Shown in pieces: positions 13,552-28,018 of a stretch of DNA of 64,000 nt. Made by a program: the position numbers and the translations under genes. This DNA comes from Daphnia pulex (taxonomy: Eukaryota; Arthropoda; Branchiopoda; Diplostraca; Daphniidae), in the NCBI RefSeq assembly GCF_021134715.1, contig NC_060024.1, positions 13,070,974 to 13,134,973 of the forward strand, written 5' to 3'. A model generated the notes under the pieces. That model ran no database searches, was not told the origin of the DNA, and saw only the letters and a program-made list of their open reading frames with translations. How positions within the stretch are numbered: the stretch's first letter is position 1; each line of letters starts with the position of its first letter.

Positions 13552-16500
13552 ATGGCGTTTTGGAAAGAGTGGAAGGAAGTCATCTGGTTCAGTCCAAAAG
13601 ACGAAGAGGATGCATCTGCCCAGCAGCCAAAGAAAAAGAAGAAGAAGGCCAGGAATGCTAATCGGGAAGAAGATGATGAAACAATGGACGACAATTCTAC
13701 TCAAATAAGTAAAAAAAAATTCAAATTTTGATTCCTAATCACAAATTTGAAAATGTAAAATTTTAATTTCTTCCCCACCAAAAATTAGCAGACATGACGT
13801 GGAAGGATTTTCTGCTGCTGGATAATCGGATGCGCATAGTCTACGTCGTCCTTCTCTGCGTCCTGCTGGGCCTTATCTTGCCCATCATCATCAGTTACTA
13901 CCTGGGCGAGTACCAAGCCGATTTGGGTAATTGCAACACCCCGACGCTAAACAGGTGAAAACAAAACGCCCAGTTTAGATATAAGAAACAAACAAAATGT
14001 CTTCCATTATCTGAGCGTAGGGACTTTTTATATCCAATATTTCCTTTGCCCTTGAAAAACTCAAATGGGATTGCGCGTTACGAGTTTCTTTGATCCCACC
14101 CTTGTCTCGTCGATCCCCCTCCAACAATCAAAATAATATCAGGATCGATCGATGAGGTTATTATCCATTAGACGTCGAAGGAGTCGTCCCCCTTTAAGAT
14201 GCCTTTTTTACGGATGAGTGGTCCCTTTGAAACGACCCATACACGTCAGACGATTATAGAAGCTGAACTGGATAACTGCCGTGTGTGTGTGTGTCATCCG
14301 CCCGAGTCTTTTTTTAGGAATCGATTGCCAACCATTTTTGTTTGAACGTCTCAATCATTTCCAAATTGGATGATTTTTCTATTATTTTTGGCAGGTTCGA
14401 GTGCATGTCGGGATCGAATGTGCAGCTGAGCAAATCGGCTTGCGAATCGGCTGGATGCTGCTGGAATTCCGGAAGCGGATCGCCAAAATGTTACCACAGT
14501 AATCCGACGAGGTACACGTACAAGGTGGACAATGTTGTGGAAGCGCTGGATTACAAGATGGTGGTGGATGTGAGGCCGGAGCGTCGATCCTCCGACATGT
14601 TCGGCAACGTCATGCCGACGGCCAGAATTGTCGTCAGGGCCGTCAACCGCGATCATCTCATCGTCCAGATGATCGCACCCGGCCAATTTGAAGACGATTC
14701 CTTCCGGCTGGTGACGGCAGACGAGCAGACGCCATTCAGCCAAACGGATTTCCAAGTCAGCGTCACCACCGAGAAGAAAACTTCTTTCGCCATCGTCGTC
14801 AAGCGGGCCAGCACGGGCGAGGTGCTCCTCGATACGTCCTACGGTCCGTTGGCCATCACCGACGAGTACGTGGAAATGTCGACGACCGTGCCCAGCGAAT
14901 TCATTTACGGGCTGGGCCAGGGAGAGCGGCGCCAGTCGTTCAAGCGGAATTTCGCCAATTACGGGAAAACGGCCCTGTACAACCGGCAGAAAGCCGATAG
15001 CTACCACCCACTTTTCATGTCCGTCTCTCCTACCAGCGGACTTTTTCACGGCGTCTTTTGGGACAATTCTTTTCCCGTTGAAATCCAGTTCTCGCCAATT
15101 CCCGCCGTTTCCTTCCGCTCCATGGGCGGCAGCGGAGTGCTTCACATTCTTGCCGGACCCACTCCGGCCGCTGTTTCCCTACAGTACAGGCGTGACATTA
15201 TCGGCTTGCCCAGTCCCATGCCGCCGTTCTGGTCATTGGGATTCCACCTATGTCGGGAGAACGACGATCCCGAGGCCAGTCAGAACACCATCAGGGAAAT
15301 GGTCAACTCCGGCATCGGGTTCGATTCCGATTGCATCGATTTGCGGCTGTCCGGGCCCGGAATGGGTTCCGCCGACCTGGGACGATTCCCGCTGGCAGCG
15401 GAACATCGTGAGCGGCTCCGTGATCAGGGCAAGAAATTTGTCCTGTCGCAACCACCCCACGTCCAGGACGTCGAACAGTTCCCAGGCGCTTCGTGGATCC
15501 TCCACAATCGGACGGTCAACAGTTCGACGATCGTCGACTACGAGACGGGCGTCCGTTTGGATTCGACCGTCTACTATCCGAGTTATCCTTTCACCGGTCA
15601 ACTGACGGACAGATGGGACGCCATGCTCCAGCCGGAAGGTTTCAATTTTCTGGACAATTGGCCGTCAAACGACGCCAAAACGGCATGCGCCTCCACCGAC
15701 CGTCCGAGATCTTTCATTCCCGAAGCCCTTCGTTCCGGCATCACCAACAACTCGATTTGCCTGGACGCTTTCCACCCGACCCAGGAGCTGGAACACTTGG
15801 CAGTTCACAATCATTACGGCATCCAGCACCTACAGTCCTTCGTGGATCAAGCCTACAGTTACCGGTTCTTGTACTTGAATCGAGCGGCCGCTTTAGGCAA
15901 TTTGGGACACGCAGGATCCCCCGGTGACGACTTAACCGCCAATTGGGCATCCATGAAAATGGCTCTCGTCCAGGTATTTTTTCTTTTTGTTTTTTTCGCC
16001 TTCCGGTTTGACTGGGTTCCCATTTGGATTCCATCCAGCAAGTAACGATCCTGTTTTTCTTCCTGTTTTTCTCCCTGTTCATTTTTTTGTTGGAGATAAA
16101 AATTTAACGTTTATTTATTACATTATTTATCCCAGGTTATGGAAATGGGACTGTTTGGAGTACCGTTGTCCGGCTCTCCCATTTGCGGCACCTACAACAG
16201 CAGCCTGGTCATCGACAATTTGTCGGAAGTGAAGGAGGAACAACTGTGCATCCGGTGGTATCAAATGGGAATGATGTTACCGTTTGCCCATTCAATGACC
16301 AAGTTAAATCAACGGGCTCGTTCCCCTGTCGACTGGTCCCTAAACACCCGCAGGCTCGTGGCCGGATACATCCAGCAGCGCTACAGATTGTTGCCCTATT
16401 TCTACTCTCTTTTCTACCAGGTAAAATACAAATCACACAATCACGTCGGAATTATTTTATATATGATTTTGTTGTTTTTCCTTTGCTACAGGCCAACACC

Positions 16501-18048: not shown

Positions 18049-19924
18049 ATGGAGAACACAGCAGAAGGAAGCCAATTGCACTCAACCGAGTGTGTAAAAG
18101 TAACTCCCCTAATAGACAATCATTTCGAGCCAGCTCAGTTTGCAGTTGGAGAAGTAAGATGATCATTTCACGATATTACAAACTCATAAGAAAATACAGT
18201 TTTTAAACTTTTTCAATTTCTAGAACCCCATGGAAAATCATGTTTCAGAAGATTGCCTCGTCATTTTCAAAGAACCTACGCCATCGGTGGTGATGCACGA
18301 AGAAAAGTCGTATACAAATCTGAAACCATCAAACATTAATCAGCAACCAGTTCCTTCTCTTATCTTAATTGACGGAGCATTGTCAGCCGAACCGCTTTCT
18401 CTCGAAATTGATCAACCGGAAAACGACCAGGAGCAACAATCAAGTAATGGACTGCTCCTTCAAGCCATGACTGACATCGTCGACATAATTGAACTGGAGC
18501 CAACTTTGCCTAGATCTAACTTGATTCTAAGTAAAATGCCGCCTCTTGTACCGATAAGAGAAAATGTCGATTGTCCCATCCCAATTGCTGAAGATGATTT
18601 TTTATTGGAGTCCCCTACCAATAATGTTATTCTTTCTCCGGAAACTAAGTTATTGTTGAGCGAGCAGATAAGGAAACATGTCCAACTTTTGACCCAAATG
18701 CACTTATTCACCGCTCAACAATCAGCTTTGACTTCTGTGACAGAAGAATGCCGTTCAATGCTACAGGACCTAATTCCGTTTAAGCAACGGTTGGGTATTG
18801 CCAACCTAGATGAAGCCCTTGATTTGGTCACTCACTGGGAGAATGTGGTGTCCAAATGCGAACCGGAAGAATTCTGTAGATATCAAAGACCAGAAGGGGT
18901 TACCTTTGAGTAAGTTTGCGCTCTTAAATTATTATTTTTTAAATAATCACTTGAAACTTTTGTGTCATTAGGGAGAGACAAGATCCGAATTTTTTCAATC
19001 CGGAACTGGTGGAAATGATGGGAGAAAGTCGCGTCTTTATGTACCCCGATTTACTTCCCAAACTCGCCATCCATCAAACGGAACCAGGTAACTTCACGTT
19101 ATCCTTAGAGTTTTTATCCATTTGTTTAAATTTATGTTTGTAAATAAGGAACCGGTCTGCGTTGGTTTTCACCTTACGAAGATCAGCTAATTGCTATGGG
19201 AATTGAGCAATTTATTCCTTTTTGTGAAAATTTGTCAATCGACTGGTGGTACTCCCTGGATCATTCTGTATCTTCCATGATATCTAAACACATGCTACCC
19301 CAATGGACTGCCGAGCAAATACAAATGCGAATAATGAACAATTGCCTAGAGACATCGCCTGCAAACCCAATTAAGGTACCTTTCATCTTCTTATTTAATT
19401 ACCGTCATATTATTTATGTTCTTTTGATTTTCCCCCTGTTTTTCTTACGAGTAGTATTGCCAGGAGAATAAAGTAGCTCCACCCCTTGAACACGTTATCC
19501 GTCCATTCTACTCTACAAGAAAATTACGTAATTTCTCTCCAGCATTGTTACCGGACCATTGGCAAAAATTGCTTGTCAAAAGTCCAGTGGAAGTGACGTC
19601 TCCTGTTTCCAGGTTTCAAGAAAATCAACTGCTTTGCATCGCTTCGATCGCTTCATTTTCTAGGACTTTTCCAGCAAGAATTGTCAATAGTCGAGCATTC
19701 GCAGGTGTTCCAGAGCTGATTTCGTCGCAAATTCCTTCACTGCCTCATCAACATCCTCCACCATTAATTCCCTTGTACCAGCAGAGACACAAGCCTGTTT
19801 GCGTAAGTTAACCGGTAAAAATGATTTTTAGACCTTACGATTTATTTCTTTTCTTATCACTTTGCGGGTTTGTTAGAAAAGGCGAAGATTTTTGCGAGAT
19901 TTCTCCACTGAAGCAAAGAAGTAG
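18049..19924 (+). CDS. GON-4-like (YARP/Mute family) chromatin regulator, short form
   Basis: Exons 18049-18153, 18224-18909, 18972-19087, 19149-19375, 19455-19802 and 19877-19924 join in phase and give 509 residues. A low-complexity acidic N-terminus leads to LSEQIRKHVQLLTQMHLF, matching the conserved QHVQLLTQ segment of GON4L. Then comes the block FSPYEDQLIAMGIEQF with downstream MRIMNNCLETSPANPIKYC and PFYSTRKLRNFSPALLPDHW, in the order known for GON4L and Drosophila Mute. The protein ends in a short basic tail, KRRRFLRDFSTEAKK. GON4L proteins are nuclear corepressors linked to YY1 and histone-gene regulation. Family members are usually much longer and carry PAH and SANT-like domains, which are absent here. 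Assignment is from recalled family motifs, without alignment. Confidence 0.72.
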
Positions 19925-20821
19925 CCATTCCCTTGGAAATGAACTTAAGGTGCCTTAAGGAAAAGCAATGTAACCTTATTAATTACATGTCTTTTATCTT
20001 TACGTTTAATTTGTAATTTTTGATATCGTCGGATATTTAAGTTAAAAAGTTTTTGATCCATGTTTGAATTAGTGTTATTTTTTAACTGTGTTATTTTTAG
20101 TTTTCGTTTATCAAAAATAAGAATGATAATCTCGAAATAAACTGTTTTGTTGGGATTGAAAGCTCAATGAAATTTACTGGAGAGGTTTCAGCAGCGAGCA
20201 AAAATGTTAAAGCATAGACATTATAGATATAGTCATATTCAAAGTCAGTCAAAGATAAAAGATGAAATTCAAAGCATTGCATTTAACTACGGTTGTTGGA
20301 ATGGTGAATAATCAGCTTGAAAAGTTTTCAACTACAAATTAAATTCTTTGCGATCGTTCAATTTGTTTTATTACACAGGAGAAAGAAAACCAAAATTGGC
20401 TGAAATATTTTACGTTGTTCATGACTGTTGAATAAGACGTTTCATGACTTATCAGTCTTTAAAAAAAAATTCGTTTTAATGCTCCAAAATGGCCAAATCG
20501 TCACAAAATGGCAATAATAACAGCGGTTTTTATTTGCAAAATAAAATATGATTGCGTAATTTAAAGTCCATAACTTCGACCAATAGGACCATTCCAAAAG
20601 TCTCGTGGCTTCTTCCCCCTGGGGCCATTAAAGAACCCTACATGGCCATGGGCATGGAGAGACGGCGTTCTTTTGTTTTATTAGGACAACTTATGATTTG
20701 GATTTAGCACATTTAGGACATTGGAAGGACTTGTGGTCTGGTGCTGCACGTGTTTTGAATCGTCTTAGATGAGAAGTTTGATATTTCATGGAAAATTTAG
20801 GGCATTACCACTCAGTGAAAG
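19925..20821 (+). other. Spacer between GON4L-like and MBD genes
   Basis: AT-rich 3' UTR and spacer, then the promoter of the MBD gene. No coding signal seen. A short minus-strand ORF at 20097-20282 lacks splice context. Confidence 0.5.
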
Positions 20822-23812
20822 ATGTCCGGTAAATATTACATAATAATTTACCATTTATCTTGGACTAACGAATCGTATTACCCATCGTTTAATTGTTTTT
20901 GTGCTCATAGATACTCCTCCCTCCTTAGTTAGAACAACGGCTAGAATTAGTATTAGACCGATTAGACCATCTAAAAATCGTAAAAATGATGCAACAAGTA
21001 ACAACAACAAAAAGTTTTGCACAAGTAATATTTCATCTCCTCTTTTGAAGGAACCATTTAAAAAAGGTATTAGTTCTTAAAGTAAACCTCGTTTATTGTA
21101 TCTTAAAATTTGAATTCGAAATTATAAGAATTATCTCATTCTAAAGGTTGGAAAAGAGAAGTTGTCTATAGAGCTATTGTTGACGAGCAATGGAGAAACA
21201 AATGTGACATTTATTATTTCTCTCCAGATGGGAAAAAATTAAGGTCAATGCCAGAAATATCCAAATACTGTAAGCATTTCATCAGCTCATGCTCCTTTAT
21301 TAAGTTATTTTCTGTAATAATCACAATCTGGTCAATCTATACATTTTGCAGTGAACCAAAGCAATAGCTGTTTTTCAATTAAAAACTTCAGCTTCTTTAA
21401 AGAACCTATTGGTATGGATGATGACAACCAAGAGATTTGCCGTTATGCAGGGACTAAATCAATCTGGGCAAGTTAACAGTAAAATCTTCATATTTGTAAA
21501 AGGTTTAATAGTATTACCTCCATTCTTGTGTTTTGCTCATTCTTAGCATGGTAAACAATCACAGAATGGCTTAAAGAAAAAAGAAATTGTTTGTGTCAAG
21601 AAAAACATTCCAAAGCATAGTCCTAGGGAAGAGGAAGACATTGTAGAAATAAGGACAACTAATAATACCTTGACCAAAAAGAGGAAGAGGTCATGTGATG
21701 ATGAAAAAGGTCCTTCCAGCCCAGTTTGTAAAATAAATACTGCTATTTATTTTTTGACATAATTTAATTATTCTTGTAATATAGATGTTGAAAATCAAAG
21801 CAAGAGAAGGGTTTCGACCAGGAAGAAACCACAGGGAAAAATGCAACCACATCCAATATCAGCCTTAAAAGCAACGTCGATGAAACAACCTCCAACGCTC
21901 CCTGCGACAAGTTCTGACAGTATGCAATTAATACTGACAAGAGTTGATGATAAATCATCACCCGCTTGCTCCGTCCATGATTGTAAAAATGTTTAAAGTT
22001 ATAAAGTATTAGTCTCACCTTTTATTAATATCGAATTTTCTTTCAGGCTCAGATGAAGACCAAGAGAAAGTTGAATCGCTGCAGGTACAACAAAACAAAA
22101 CATCGCTGGGAAAGAAGAAACAGAATCCAATACCAGTTCTTAGAGCCACAACGATGGAAGAACCTCCAACACTTCATGCTACAAGTAGTGACAATATGCC
22201 TGTACTGAGAAGAATTGATGAGGAATCATCGCTAGCTTGCTCCGTCCATGATTGTAAATGGTTACAGTAAATATTTTCGTCTCACCTTTCATAAATATCC
22301 GATTTTCTTTCAGCCTCTGATGAAGACCAAGAGAAGGTTGAATCGCCACAGGGAAAGAAGCAGCAAGATCCAACATTCCCTGCCGCAAGTTGCGACAAAA
22401 TTCCTTTACTAAAAAGATTTGATGAGTTATCGCCAGCTTGCTCCGTCTATGATTGTAAATGGTTACAGTACATTTTTAATTGTCTCACCTTTCATCAATA
22501 TCCGATTTGTTTACAGCTTCAGAGGAAGACCAAGTAAATGTCGAATCGCTTCGTGGACGCCAAACCAGGACGAGAGGGAAAAAGCAACATGATCCAAATC
22601 CAGTCGTTAAAGCAACATCCATGAAACAACCTCCAACCCTCTGTGCCACAAGTAGTGACAGTCTTCCTTTACTCAGAAGATTTTGTGATTTATCGTCGCA
22701 AAGCTCCGTCCATGATTGTAAATGTTACAATAAATATTTTCATGTAACCTTATTAATATCCGATTTGTTTACAGCTTCAGATGAAGACCAAGAGCAAGTC
22801 AAATCTCTACCCAGACACCACACCAAGTCACGAGGGAAAAAGAGACAAGATCGAGCCTCAAAAGCAACTTCGTTGAATATGCCTTTACTGACAAGACTTG
22901 ATGAAGAATCTTCCCCATCTTGCTCCGTCCAGGATTGTAAATACTTACAGTAAATATTTCCTCTTAGCTTTCAATAATATGGATTTGCTTACAGGCGAAG
23001 ATAAAACTGTGTCATCAGATGAAGACCAAGAAAAAGTCGAATCGCCAGTTCAGGAACCAGCTCCTGTAATCTCGAGGTTACCCGATGCAGCGATGCCATT
23101 TCCTGAAACTCTGCCTCTGAACTCACCTCTTATTGCGCTCCTTCCTGTTGGCACTACTCTGGTCCTTACCGATCCTTCGACTTTAAGGATTATTCCTCCA
23201 CCTACTGCCTTGACGTCAACGAAAGAAACTGAAGTCCCTCATCCGAAACCTATTCTTTCGCAACCATCAAGTGACAAAAATTCTGTAGCTGACTCGTCTA
23301 AAACTTCATTTCGGAAACCGAAGGCAACTAAGAAAATTCAATGGGCTACTTTGCCATCATCTCCGCCTGTGAACAAGCGCAAACTTAGAAGTAAGAAAAA
23401 ACCAGCGACTGCGACAGTTTCAGTTCCGAAGAGCACCCCTTCGGTGGATGAATTTGCAATTCCGCAAAGTCCATCTGTTTACCTAAACCAGAGATCACTA
23501 CATGAATATGGAGCGGTAGGAAACCAGAAACCGTCCTACTGGCAAAGTATAGGCGACGCTTTAATTGAAGAGGGATTAAAGAAGGCCTACCACTCTAGTG
23601 CAAAAATAGGAGATAATTCAATATCGGCGACACCGATATCCCAAATGGTTACAGGCGCTACAAAGGCTGCAACACCGCAAGTTTTGACTTGTAAAGATTT
23701 TTTCGCACTCCGCAAGCAAAAACGGAAAGAGCAACAAAAGCCTCAAATTACCGACTTAGATATTACAAGTATTTCGGCTGTGGAGAAATCGAACCAATAC
23801 AGTACTGGGTAA
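20822..23812 (+). CDS. Methyl-CpG-binding-domain (MBD) protein with tandemly duplicated exons
   Basis: Exons 20822-20828, 20911-21066, 21147-21269, 21352-21467, 21547-21727, 21785-21982, 22047-22253, 22314-22454, 22517-22717, 22775-22936 and 22995-23812 give 769 residues in phase. Exon 3 encodes an MBD from about residue 55: GWKREVVYR, then CDIYYFSPDGKKLRSMPEI, resembling MBD-R2-like proteins. Exons 6 to 11 are repeats of one exon, phase 1 at both ends, with the theme SDEDQEKVES at the start and CSVHD at the end. The tail carries LPLNSP...GTTLVLTDPSTLRI and KDFFALRKQKRKEQQKP. The intron after 21467 uses a GC donor (gcaagt). The stop at 23810-23812 overlaps a good donor (GG|GTAAGG), but AATAAA at 23966 supports ending here. 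The likely role is nuclear DNA or chromatin binding. Confidence 0.82.
21785..23060 (+). repeat. Tandem exon-duplication array inside the MBD gene
   Basis: Six units occur in exons of 198, 207, 141, 201, 162 and the first part of 818 nt. Each coding unit runs from SDEDQEKVES-like residues through TSSD..PLLRR.DE to CSVHD. The 21785 unit is the most diverged at its start. Introns between units are also alike, sharing GTAAATGGTTACAGTAAAT, then CACCTTTCAT and ATCCGATTT before the acceptor. Duplication therefore copied exon plus intron and is fairly recent. Every boundary is phase 1. Confidence 0.9.
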
Positions 23813-24407
23813 GGCAAACTTAACCTTCACCCACCCGTTTCAAAAGACTGTTGACATATAAAGTAAACTTACCTGTTTATTTTTTTTACTGTTATGTTCT
23901 TTAACTTAATTAACGAATAACGATGCTATCCGTTTAACATGAAGAAGATGGGAAGATAAAACTCAAATAAAAAAATGAAAATCTTTTGCTGATGCCTTAT
24001 TTCATGGCAGTTTGATCAAATGGATTGATGTTTTCACCTCCGCATTAAGAGGCCTGAGTGTCCTTGATTCATTCTAAGTTTCCTGTTTTCCCCACCGCTT
24101 AAGTTTATTTGTCTTAAACCGGATGTTGATTGAATTTGGTCAAATAAAAGGGCATGTTGTGTGTAATTAAAAACCTTTCATGTTACTCTTTCATGCCTGT
24201 CATTTCTGTACAATGTTGCGGTGTACAGCATACGTCAATTAGAAATTAAGACCTCTGGTGGTAAATTGAGATACTAAAAACGTAGCAGACATGTTTAGTT
24301 TGGCCGAGTTTTGGTTTGGTTATCTTGGATTCTTGGTTCAAGAAAAACAGTCGTAGACTTGTAACTTAAAGTTGTATGAAAAGCTGGCATAGATTTAAAC
24401 TCATTAG
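23813..24407 (+). other. MBD-gene 3' UTR and spacer
   Basis: Contains a poly(A) signal at 23966-23971 for the MBD gene, then AT-rich spacer to the next start at 24408. No gene seen. Confidence 0.6.
23966..23971 (+). terminator. Poly(A) signal AATAAA of the MBD gene
   Basis: AATAAA lies 154 nt after the stop codon and is followed by A-rich sequence. It supports termination of the reading frame at 23812 rather than further splicing. Confidence 0.6.
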
Positions 24408-27400
24408 ATGTCTAGCGATGTTCAGATAAAAGACGAGGATCAGCAACCTGTTTTAAAATGCAGAAAGCCTTCTTCGTCTAATGGTTTTTTTACGTTCATC
24501 AAACATGGGGGAAAAATAGAGGAAGGGATTGAACACAATCATTCTCTTGGAGAAATGGGCAGAAGTGTTTGCAATGTTGCTGGTTGTAGCTTTACAGTAG
24601 AAGGAAAAGAAACAAGGAGTCTAGTAAACCATTTAAAGACACACCGAAAAGAATATGTGCAGTTTTTGTCCAAATGTAAAGAAAAGGTTGTAAAAGTCAG
24701 GGCTGTGCCTCATAATGTAAACACAGTCGAGACAACAATCAAAGATCCACCAACTGTCAAAGAGGTAAGATGAGGTTTGAAATGGTTAAGTTTGTATTTA
24801 ATCAACCTCACAGTTTTCGTTCCATTTTCAGAAAATTGTAGCAAGTCCAGTTTTCCAAATAAATGGAGCTGCATCACTTCCCTCGCCCAACCTGACAGGT
24901 ATAAAGGTTGTTTTGAAAAATATTAATTTAATCTAATAGAAGCTTATGAATTGACAGTAGATAACTGTGACAATAAGTTACCTGTTCTGCAAGAAAATGT
25001 GGAAAGGGGGTCACCTCAAAGACAGTGTCTGTCAGAACTACCTCTAAATTCTCCTCTCACTATGTCTGTGTTCCTTCCACTTGGTACCACTCTAATTGTT
25101 TCGGATCCCTCAACTCTAAAAATCGTTTGTGCCAACTCCAGTCAAAATTTACCGCCGAAAGCAAAGAATTCGCCCGTTACCGTGGTCGTAGAAAACGAAC
25201 CACTTGGAAATACTTCAGCGTCCTGTGCAACTCCTTCTCTCTTGAAATGTAGCCAACCGACAGCTAATCGTAATTCCCCTGTTGACAATGGCGCATTAGC
25301 GATGAAAGGTATGGCCGCAGATAATGTAAACCACACAAGATCTCCTCCTGGATCATTTAACCTTGTACAGCCTTACAGTTGTTCACCAACAACTGTACCT
25401 ATTGAACATATCCGTCTTCAAGCAATTCCTACCCCTGGTATTGGACCGTCACCCTCAACAGAAACCACACACGTTTATAAAACGAATCCTGTTACGGCTT
25501 CCATTCCCATTGTACACGAAGTAAAAATTGTTTCCCTTTCACATCAAACTACCTCTTTTTCTTCCACTGTGCATCCTTCCGAAGTCATTGAACAGACTAA
25601 GGCCGTTGTTAAAAATTCCTCGTCTGCTCAACCTTCAGAACAAAAATGCATTTCCCAGAGCAGTACCGTTCTTTCCACAGAAACTCTTGATGCTAGCATT
25701 ACTGGGAGCGAACCATTAGAAGCCGTCCATGAGCATCTAAAAGTAACCGCCTCAAAGAAACAACCTAGCGTTCTCCAACAGCCACAACAACCTTCAATTC
25801 GGTCTCTTGAGCAACACCCCGATCTGCTTTCTGTCAATCAACTGGTATAAAAAAAGCTTTATTTGAATTTATTTTCGTTCAAATTCTAATACTTTTCAAC
25901 TTCAATAACAGGACACCACAAAAATGTCACCACTGCAGGTTGATAATACGGAAAATTCTTCTTTATTAATTGAGAAATCTGCTCGAACAAATGACAGTCA
26001 AGCTGGTTTACTCAGTAAGGACGTTCCCCTGACAGCCGTGTCTGAAATGACGGAACTACTGGAGCCGAATTCGCATGAAGAGTGTGCGGCAACGAGCCCT
26101 CTGAACAGCTTTAAGAAAAGTCTGTCCATGGCAACTGGCATAACCGTAGCTTCGTTTGGTAAACAAAACCGATTCAAGTAGAAACAAATTCCCAACTTAA
26201 TTATACTAAGAATGTAAATATTTTTATCCAGCTAAAATCGGTGATGGGTCTGAGGAAAGAGCTCAAACTGCTTTGACGTCGATGCCTCCACCACTGGAAT
26301 CTAGTGTACCGGTTAAAGAACCTCTTGTAGCCGCTTCGACATCACATTCTGAGGATTCCCCCAACAGTAATAAATCTGCTGTTAATAGCCCTACTATTCC
26401 ACATGCGGAGCCTTCGCCTATTACTGAATTGGACGTTCTTCATGATGGATCTGTATCTGGTATGCACAACTATTAAATTGTATACAAGGTTAGAAAAAAA
26501 AATTGGTTTGAATGAAGAAAATCTTGTGTTTGTTTGTACTTTACAAGGTACCACAAATGTTTGCGACAAGTCTTCAGGTGAAACGGTGGACGAAAGAACG
26601 CATCCGGTTTTCCAGTTTTTTAAATTTAATTCCGTCCATGGGAAGAGTGAGTGCATTGTTGATGGCTGCGGAGTTTTACGCAATGGAAAAAACCCGGCAA
26701 CTCTTATTAATCATCTGCGAGTAAAACATCCTAAAAAGGCATATACCGAGTTCATGGCCAAGTGGACAACAAATTGGGCTCGACCAAAAAGAACGACAAC
26801 AATGGTTAACGTTTCCAACATAGCCCAACCGTCAAAGATACTTCAATCAGCTCGTGCAAGAGTAAGAAAAGTTTACTTGCTTGCTTGTTGCTTTGCTTGA
26901 ATAAATCCTTGTGATCATTTGACTGTCTGTTAAATTAAAATATCTAACATTGCCCTTTTTTATGTTCTATTCAGAAGTCCAAGAAGAAGAACTCACCTTT
27001 ACTAGGCGAAAAAGGAATTGAACTAGTGCCTTCTTCAGTGATTGTACCTGATTTGGTGTCGACAGGATCGGTGGCTCCCCAAGGTTCTTCCGGTAAGTAA
27101 CAAATCTAAGTAGCAGCCAATAAATGAGTTATTAGCTTGAATATTTTGTGACTCTTTATTCGTTTCTCTTGATTAAACAGATGGTGGACCAATTTCTAAC
27201 GAAAATCCTTCAGTTGGTTCAAATATGCATCAAGCAATTCTTACAGATGGCGACAACTCTGCAACCCATAGCTACAGAAAAGATTCTTTTAATGAAAAAT
27301 TGCATCCGGTTTATCGTTATTTTACATTCCGTGAGGCAACAGAAGGGCCAGCTGAAGTTACCCAAGATAGTTGTGTCAAAAGCCAGTGCAATTTTCAGGG

Positions 27401-28018
27401 CTGTAACTTTACTATCAAGGGAAACAAAATGGCAAATCTCATGCTTCACTTGAGTTTGCAACATCGCGATACAAAGGAATTTGCTGAGTTCGTATCTTTG
27501 AATGACAAATATGAAGCGCAGCGCCTTAAATCAATGGACAACCCGTCAGATCGAATTGTAAGTTTATCAGCCTTTCTATCTGCTATTTTCGTTACATCCG
27601 GTTGGTAAATTTGGCTCAGATATTCTCAAATTTTCTAGGTAATTTTTTAATTATGCTTGTCCTATATTTTTATGTATAGCAACCACGAAAGAGGCCCCTT
27701 GCGAAAATTGCTGGCAACACCTATCAAGAATACCTTGCTTGCCGCAAAAAACAACGGAAAGACTTGGGCGTCGGGACTGCAATGTCATCCTCGTTGGTAA
27801 AGGGTCAGCAAAATATTCGTAATCAACCAACAACTTCCATTATGGTGGTCGACCAACAGATTTCATCAAACGTTGCTAATGAAGCAGCTGCTCAGTTACC
27901 TGTACACACTCCGGAACAAGAACTCGACTTTATCGGACCAGACATCCCTTTTGAATATTCTTCTTTAAGAACAACCGTTCGTGATCAACCTTTGCTCGAT
28001 TCGACGTTTCCGAACTAG
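24408..28018 (+). CDS. Protein with three BED-like C2H2 zinc fingers
   Basis: Exons 24408-24764, 24832-24898, 24958-25844, 25912-26158, 26232-26459, 26548-26861, 26975-27092, 27181-27557 and 27680-28018 join in phase for 977 residues. Three fingers share C-x4-C-x14-H-x3/4-H: VCNVAGCSFT...NHLKTH in exon 1, ECIVDGCGVL...NHLRVKH in exon 6 and QCNFQGCNFT...LHLSLQH in exon 8. Each is preceded by an aromatic block (FFTFIK, HPVFQFFKF, HPVYRYFTF), as in BED fingers, although BED proteins usually have C-x2-C. A middle segment, LPLNSPL...LGTTLIVSDPSTLKI, and a late EYLACRKKQRKD match the neighbouring MBD protein, so the two are related. Linkers are Ser/Thr/Pro-rich. It is probably a nuclear DNA-binding protein, perhaps of domesticated transposase ancestry. 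The exact family is not recognised. Confidence 0.8.

Follow-up and report, generated by a model that had tools for sequence, protein, structure and literature searches.

A tandem array of phase-symmetric exons in a predicted methyl-CpG-binding protein gene of Daphnia pulex and its probable origin from two neighboring exons

Introduction

Do similar exons that all begin and end in the same phase point to regulated alternative splicing, or does their symmetry record how they were copied? This question is raised by a gene in the window analyzed here, the whole 64,000-nucleotide stretch of Daphnia pulex contig NC_060024.1 (positions 13,070,974 to 13,134,973); coordinates below are those of the window. 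A sequence-only reading of this DNA had proposed six consecutive exons encoding variants of one unit, at 21785..23060 in an MBD protein gene, and had suggested that any combination of them could be skipped without loss of frame, yielding many repeat-length isoforms. Tandem exon duplication, of which the array is a tidy example, is a known phenomenon: according to PMC9013439, which cites a 2002 survey, tandemly duplicated exons occur in about 10% of animal genes. Among titles and abstract openings, we recognized no literature on such a Daphnia MBD gene, and we claim its absence no more strongly than that.

Results

The gene and its methyl-CpG-binding domain

The exon and intron boundaries of the gene model were picked by hand from the sequence letters, yielding an open spliced frame with the following overall features.

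20822..23812, + strand: MBD-protein gene, 11 predicted coding exons, 769 aa
21147..21467, + strand: exons 3 and 4 with intron 3, encoding most of the methyl-CpG-binding domain (Pfam PF01429)

Intron 4 (21468-21546) is apparently of the GC-AG type, as the donor GCAAGT at 21468 gives an open frame. A GT donor for this intron and a GC donor shifted by one base were both rejected, since each broke the frame.

The assignment to the MBD proteins was borne out by a PF01429 match at aa 50-111 (E 7.2e-14, 51.6 bits against a curated cut-off of 21), which begins within the last codons of exon 2, and by the best solved relatives. The closest chain was MBD2 (2ky8, E 3.3e-9), followed by BAZ2B, MBD3 and BAZ2A. 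The positions aligned to R24, D34, Y36 and R46 of 2ky8, which we take to be its methyl-CpG contacts, are all identical (4/4, read from the alignment). These similarities support the identification of the product as an MBD protein, with binding to methylated DNA as a prediction. The Pfam scan of the 769-aa protein returned the MBD only, with no second domain above cut-off, and in the whole window nothing reached the gathering score of an Rfam family. Relatives of the MBD were confirmed neither in viral contigs nor in prokaryotic genome contigs, and those of the terminal exon were not confirmed in viral contigs; these collections hold no eukaryote genomes, so that both results say little.

Several features were observed around the array. 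In its terminal exon (23111-23194) the MBD gene shares with the next gene downstream (25038-25127) a 30-aa motif, LPLNSPL..LP(V/L)GTTL..(T/S)DPSTL(R/K)I, with 63% identity and a tblastn E value of 2.9e-6; Pfam reports no family there in either gene. The downstream gene (24408-28015) seemingly contains, near 24570, 26650 and 27390, three mutually similar finger-like segments with Cys and His, which look BED- or C2H2-like by eye and have no finger match in Pfam. Farther upstream lie a glycoside hydrolase family 31 segment with a trefoil domain (14318-16045) and a segment without Pfam match (18224-18913) that we take to be possibly GON4L-like.

Composition of the repeat array

The array extends from exon 6 into the terminal exon and consists of the following parts.

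21785..21982, + strand: exon 6 (U0, the "A" exon), 198 nt; unique head, homologous middle and tail
21983..22046, + strand: intron 6 (i6), 64 nt; homologous to i7-i10 in its 3′ half, without significant homology in the 5′ half
22047..22253, + strand: exon 7 (U1), 207 nt; full unit
22254..22313, + strand: intron 7 (i7), 60 nt
22314..22454, + strand: exon 8 (U2), 141 nt; unit with internal deletions relative to U1
22455..22516, + strand: intron 8 (i8), 62 nt
22517..22717, + strand: exon 9 (U3), 201 nt; full unit
22718..22774, + strand: intron 9 (i9), 57 nt; a multiple of three, stop-free
22775..22936, + strand: exon 10 (U4), 162 nt; unit with an internal deletion relative to U1
22937..22994, + strand: intron 10 (i10), 58 nt
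22995..23812, + strand: exon 11 (terminal, the "Z" exon); only its head homologous, followed by unique sequence, with alignments ending at 23045-23077

U0 to U4 were homologous in all ten pairwise comparisons, each better than all 1000 shuffles (z 9.9-28.5). U5, the start of exon 11, reached this level in three of its five pairs with U0-U4, the pairs U0-U5 (43/1000 shuffles as good) and U3-U5 (12/1000) falling short of it. Introns i6-i10 were also mutually alike (10/10 pairs, z 2.9-10.7, 300 shuffles), and pairs involving introns 1-5, listed only above z 2.5, did not exceed 3.3 (i2-i10 3.3, i1-i4 3.0, i1-i9 2.5). The same units, exons 6-10 and the head of exon 11, were recovered by a general repeat search, and Tandem Repeats Finder reported 22182-22549 only (period 203, 1.8 copies). 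In the gene model exons 6-10 are all phase 1-1, with lengths that are all multiples of three. Homology of adjacent exons and of the introns between them supports tandem exon duplication, with expression of the copies predicted.

The description of these exons as tandemly duplicated phase-1 exons with similar introns was therefore confirmed for exons 6-10 and i6-i10. The repeat itself is real, and the count of six full variants had to be reduced: the head SDEDQEKVES or a variant of it is present in exons 7-11 and the tail CSVHD, again with variants, in exons 6-10, so that only the four exons 7-10 combine both. No significant homology was seen for the head of exon 6, and at the DNA level exon 11 lacks a homologous body. 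As to the extent, exon 6 does start at 21785, and exon 11 continues past 23060 to 23812.

Origin of the inner exons

Local alignments placed the start of the homology of U0 at unit nt 48 (against U1 and U3) or 44 (against U2, which has a deletion there); the U0-U4 alignment extends into the intron and yields no breakpoint. The homology of U5 stops at unit nt 42 (U1), 51 (U2), 33 (U3) or 61 (U4), so that the one homology sets in close to the point at which the other stops. Outside these limits, the end of i5 together with the start of U0 showed no match to the starts of the units (z -0.4 to 2.2 in four tests, best 46/1000; control pairs z 26-37), nor was there one between the unit heads and the initial 14 aa of U0 (137/1000 at best). 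Past its head, U5 matched none of the five unit bodies in DNA (z ≤1.0). When the introns were compared by halves, mutual matches extended over both halves of i7-i10 but for i6 were confined to the 3′ half; the 5′ half of i6 (z -0.6 to 1.7) was no better than i1 (0.6-2.7) or i4 (1.6-2.3).

We consider it probable that exons 7-10 are chimeras with a Z head and an A tail, because a segment running from the end of exon A through one phase-1 intron into the start of exon Z was duplicated in tandem, and that most transcripts include all units. Such a duplication is the simplest origin for the sequences at hand. One breakpoint of the first duplication would have fallen within exon A and the other within exon Z, and the copied segment would have produced an internal exon with a Z head and an A tail; the four exons would then have arisen as this unit, 201-271 nt from donor to donor, was duplicated further. 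A new exon of this kind is flanked by two copies of one intron and therefore starts and ends in the phase of that intron, 1-1. The phase symmetry of exons 6-10 is thus one inherited fact, not six independent ones.

Alternatively, a whole exon with its flanking introns might have been duplicated; exon 6 would later have lost the head, and exon 11 would have become fused with the last unit. At the protein level, U5 past its head does give matches that are nominal for U0 (z 3.7, 3/1000) and weak for U4 (21/1000), which could mean that U5 was once a whole unit and would speak against a chimeric origin. This scenario nevertheless requires two extra events, neither of which left a DNA trace that we found, and i5, tested by halves, matched the i6-i10 family in neither half. 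We regard it as unlikely.

Age of the units

Pooled over units, dN was 0.29 and dS 0.65, with dS values of 0.31 in the tail, 0.86 in the middle and 1.33 in the head. No exact match between units is longer than 24 nt. By these measures the units are old, and frequent unequal exchange is unlikely today because of the short exact matches and the high dS. The low identity between units also speaks against frequent variation of copy number between individuals, as had been proposed from the sequence.

Three of the four adjacent pairs of introns were the most alike in their 3′ halves (i6-i7, z 8.0; i7-i8, 8.2; i8-i9, 7.3-7.7), compared with 4.1-6.0 for farther pairs, the adjacent pair i9-i10 (4.2-4.3) being the exception. 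Stepwise duplication or local conversion would produce such a pattern. Trees of the units were weakly supported (36-72%). The distribution of dS over segments allows for gene conversion of the tail and intron, the data being too few to tell it from constraint.

Coding capacity and selection

Exons 6-10 contain no stop in the 302 codons of their frame, compared with 11/303 and 29/302 in the other two frames; shuffled exons had a mean of 16.6 stops, and none of 5000 shuffles was without any. Pooled omega was 0.45 (95% 0.29-0.68). By segment it was 0.32 for head and middle together (bootstrap 95% 0.18-0.52), 0.39 for the middle, 0.19 for the head (156/2000 bootstraps undefined) and 0.86 for the tail (0.37-2.36), the latter not distinguishable from 1. 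These values suggest purifying selection on the head and middle, and hence that the units are translated. Of the 14 gap runs in the multiple DNA alignment, 12 have lengths divisible by three, and the remaining two, both in U0, total 12; in pairwise alignments the proportion was only 26/56 for exons versus 5/25 for introns.

Pooled pairwise differences among U1-U4 amounted to 54/291 in the following introns and 69/299 in the preceding ones, versus 43/89 for fourfold sites and 110/305 for third positions overall, in comparisons that share sequences, involve short introns with splice signals and include a poorly aligning middle segment. By columns, 15 of 46 internal positions vary in introns 7-10, versus 13/19 third positions of the head and middle (p 0.013 without correction, in one of five segment groups), 20/37 of all third positions (p 0.07) and 7/18 in the tail (p 0.77). 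The lower divergence of introns than of silent sites is thus modest by columns and only a lead. It may be that the intron and donor sequences are constrained or homogenized and, with equally weak donors, form a splicing rheostat that sets the number of phospho-acidic beads described below, an idea to which we give a slim chance.

Inclusion, skipping and retention

All 32 subsets of exons 6-10 stay open in frame (32/32), so that each skip keeps the frame, as in a PEVK-like array. The arithmetic of the skipping proposal thus holds. In-frame skippability is no evidence of regulated isoforms, however, because it is expected from the copying of a single phase-1 intron.

The donors of i6-i10 (GATT/GTAAA) have the weakest pairing to U1 snRNA, -1.6 kcal/mol, of 15 donors, namely the ten of this gene, i6-i10 included, and five picked by eye in neighboring genes; the others range from -2.4 to -9.6 kcal/mol. 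This weakness counts as one event rather than five, because the donors are copies. At 57-64 nt, i6-i10 are near the median introns of 63 and 77 bp given for two D. pulex assemblies in PMC5427498. Short introns are linked in PMC9225289 to pairing across the intron, and PMC1831480 connects intron retention in human with weak sites in short introns. An exon between 87- and 80-nt introns was recognized by exon definition in work cited in PMC9225289. PMC6142364 reports that the lengths of introns and exons do not affect retention in a homogeneous way throughout the eukaryotes, and that frame-preserving sequence is enriched in exon skipping among animals. Introns as short as i6-i10 favor recognition across the intron, a mode that commonly fails by leaving the intron in. 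Since the introns are short and their donors weak, full inclusion with some intron retention would be expected, and we infer that skipping is a minor path.

Combinatorial skipping, in which the symmetric exons would serve as a splicing rheostat and generate many repeat-number isoforms, has in its favor the open subsets, the weak donors and the precedent of titin PEVK, whose length is altered by splicing more or fewer repeats according to PMC6469411. All the same, the symmetry appears to follow from the copying of a single intron, all five donors share one origin, and both the intron length and the human link between weak sites and retention point away from skipping. We consider such a rheostat improbable.

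Intron retention might instead be the real alternative, leading to truncated proteins or, for intron 9, to an internally extended one. The weak donors in short introns are consistent with it, and intron 9 can be retained in frame, exons 9 and 10 also reading as one open frame. Read-through stops after 12-15 nt in i6, i7 and i10 and after 81 nt for i8, beyond its own 62 nt. Yet only one of the five introns keeps the frame, the others being expected decay targets, and the influence of length differs among eukaryotes. Such retention seems possible, if doubtful; it is compatible with the preferred reading of chimeric exons that most transcripts include, and our confidences in the various alternatives are not mutually exclusive.

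Tandem homologous exons in a presumed arthropod also bring to mind mutually exclusive splicing of the Dscam type. Here, however, including units jointly keeps the frame, exon lengths vary from 141 to 207 nt, and the units would seem to resemble linkers rather than alternative versions of a fold. No docking-selector pairing was found in the regions scanned (about 20700-21789 and 23000-24059). The best of 102 windows outside the array, a candidate docking site at 21220-21279 (mean z -2.7), was dropped, as 36 of 60 column-shuffled intron sets equaled it. Local consensus RNA structure around the introns was not detected either (z -0.35). We consider mutually exclusive use of these exons very unlikely.

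The encoded array

Order-promoting residues are scarce in the protein segment encoded by the array (aa 195-521), where they make up a fraction of 0.22, compared with 0.36 for the MBD and 0.26 for the C-terminal part. The segment contains 21 S/TxxD/E sites, compared with 10.7 ± 2.7 in shuffled sequences (0/2000 with as many), an excess that is inflated by the repetition. S/TxxD/E is the site recognized by CK2, and many of these sites fall in the junction bead SVHD-SSDEDQE. SUMO-interacting motifs in the hydrophobic tail were dropped as candidates, with 3 motifs versus 2.1 ± 1.5 in shuffled sequences (706/2000 with as many).

With all units included, as proposed for most transcripts, the protein would continue after the MBD as a chain, probably disordered, that carries five beads rich in Ser and acidic residues. 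Each bead (SVHD-SSDEDQEKVES and variants) would be built across an exon-exon junction, be rich in CK2-type sites and alternate with basic stretches. The array may thereby make multivalent acidic contacts, the number of beads setting the valency of contact with chromatin proteins. Skipping of one exon, probably a minor path, would remove one bead.

Discussion

The proposed history would make this array a clean worked case in which a single duplication with breakpoints inside two neighboring exons yields symmetric exons without selection for skipping. It also carries a caution, namely that phase symmetry should not be taken as evidence of alternative splicing. If the number of beads is regulated after all, splicing would be linked to the valency of a methyl-DNA reader.

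The predicted protein has its MBD in common with MBD2- and BAZ2-type proteins, down to the four residues aligned to 2ky8. It differs from them in having no further Pfam domain above cut-off and a repeat array after the MBD. A second comparison is offered by the PEVK segments of titin, which are disordered. There as here, repetitive exons change in number by duplication, and in titin splicing varies the length, as described in PMC6469411. The present array has four full units separated by 57-64-nt introns, in a presumed nuclear MBD protein. The Dscam clusters of insects and crustaceans likewise consist of tandem exon copies within one gene (PMC3236188), whereas here no docking signal was found and all copies can be joined in frame. 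A further parallel is tandem exon duplication as it occurs in animal genes, with adjacent homologous exons and homologous introns; the inner exons of this array differ in that they look chimeric, derived from two ancestral exons and one intron, and lie in a linker.
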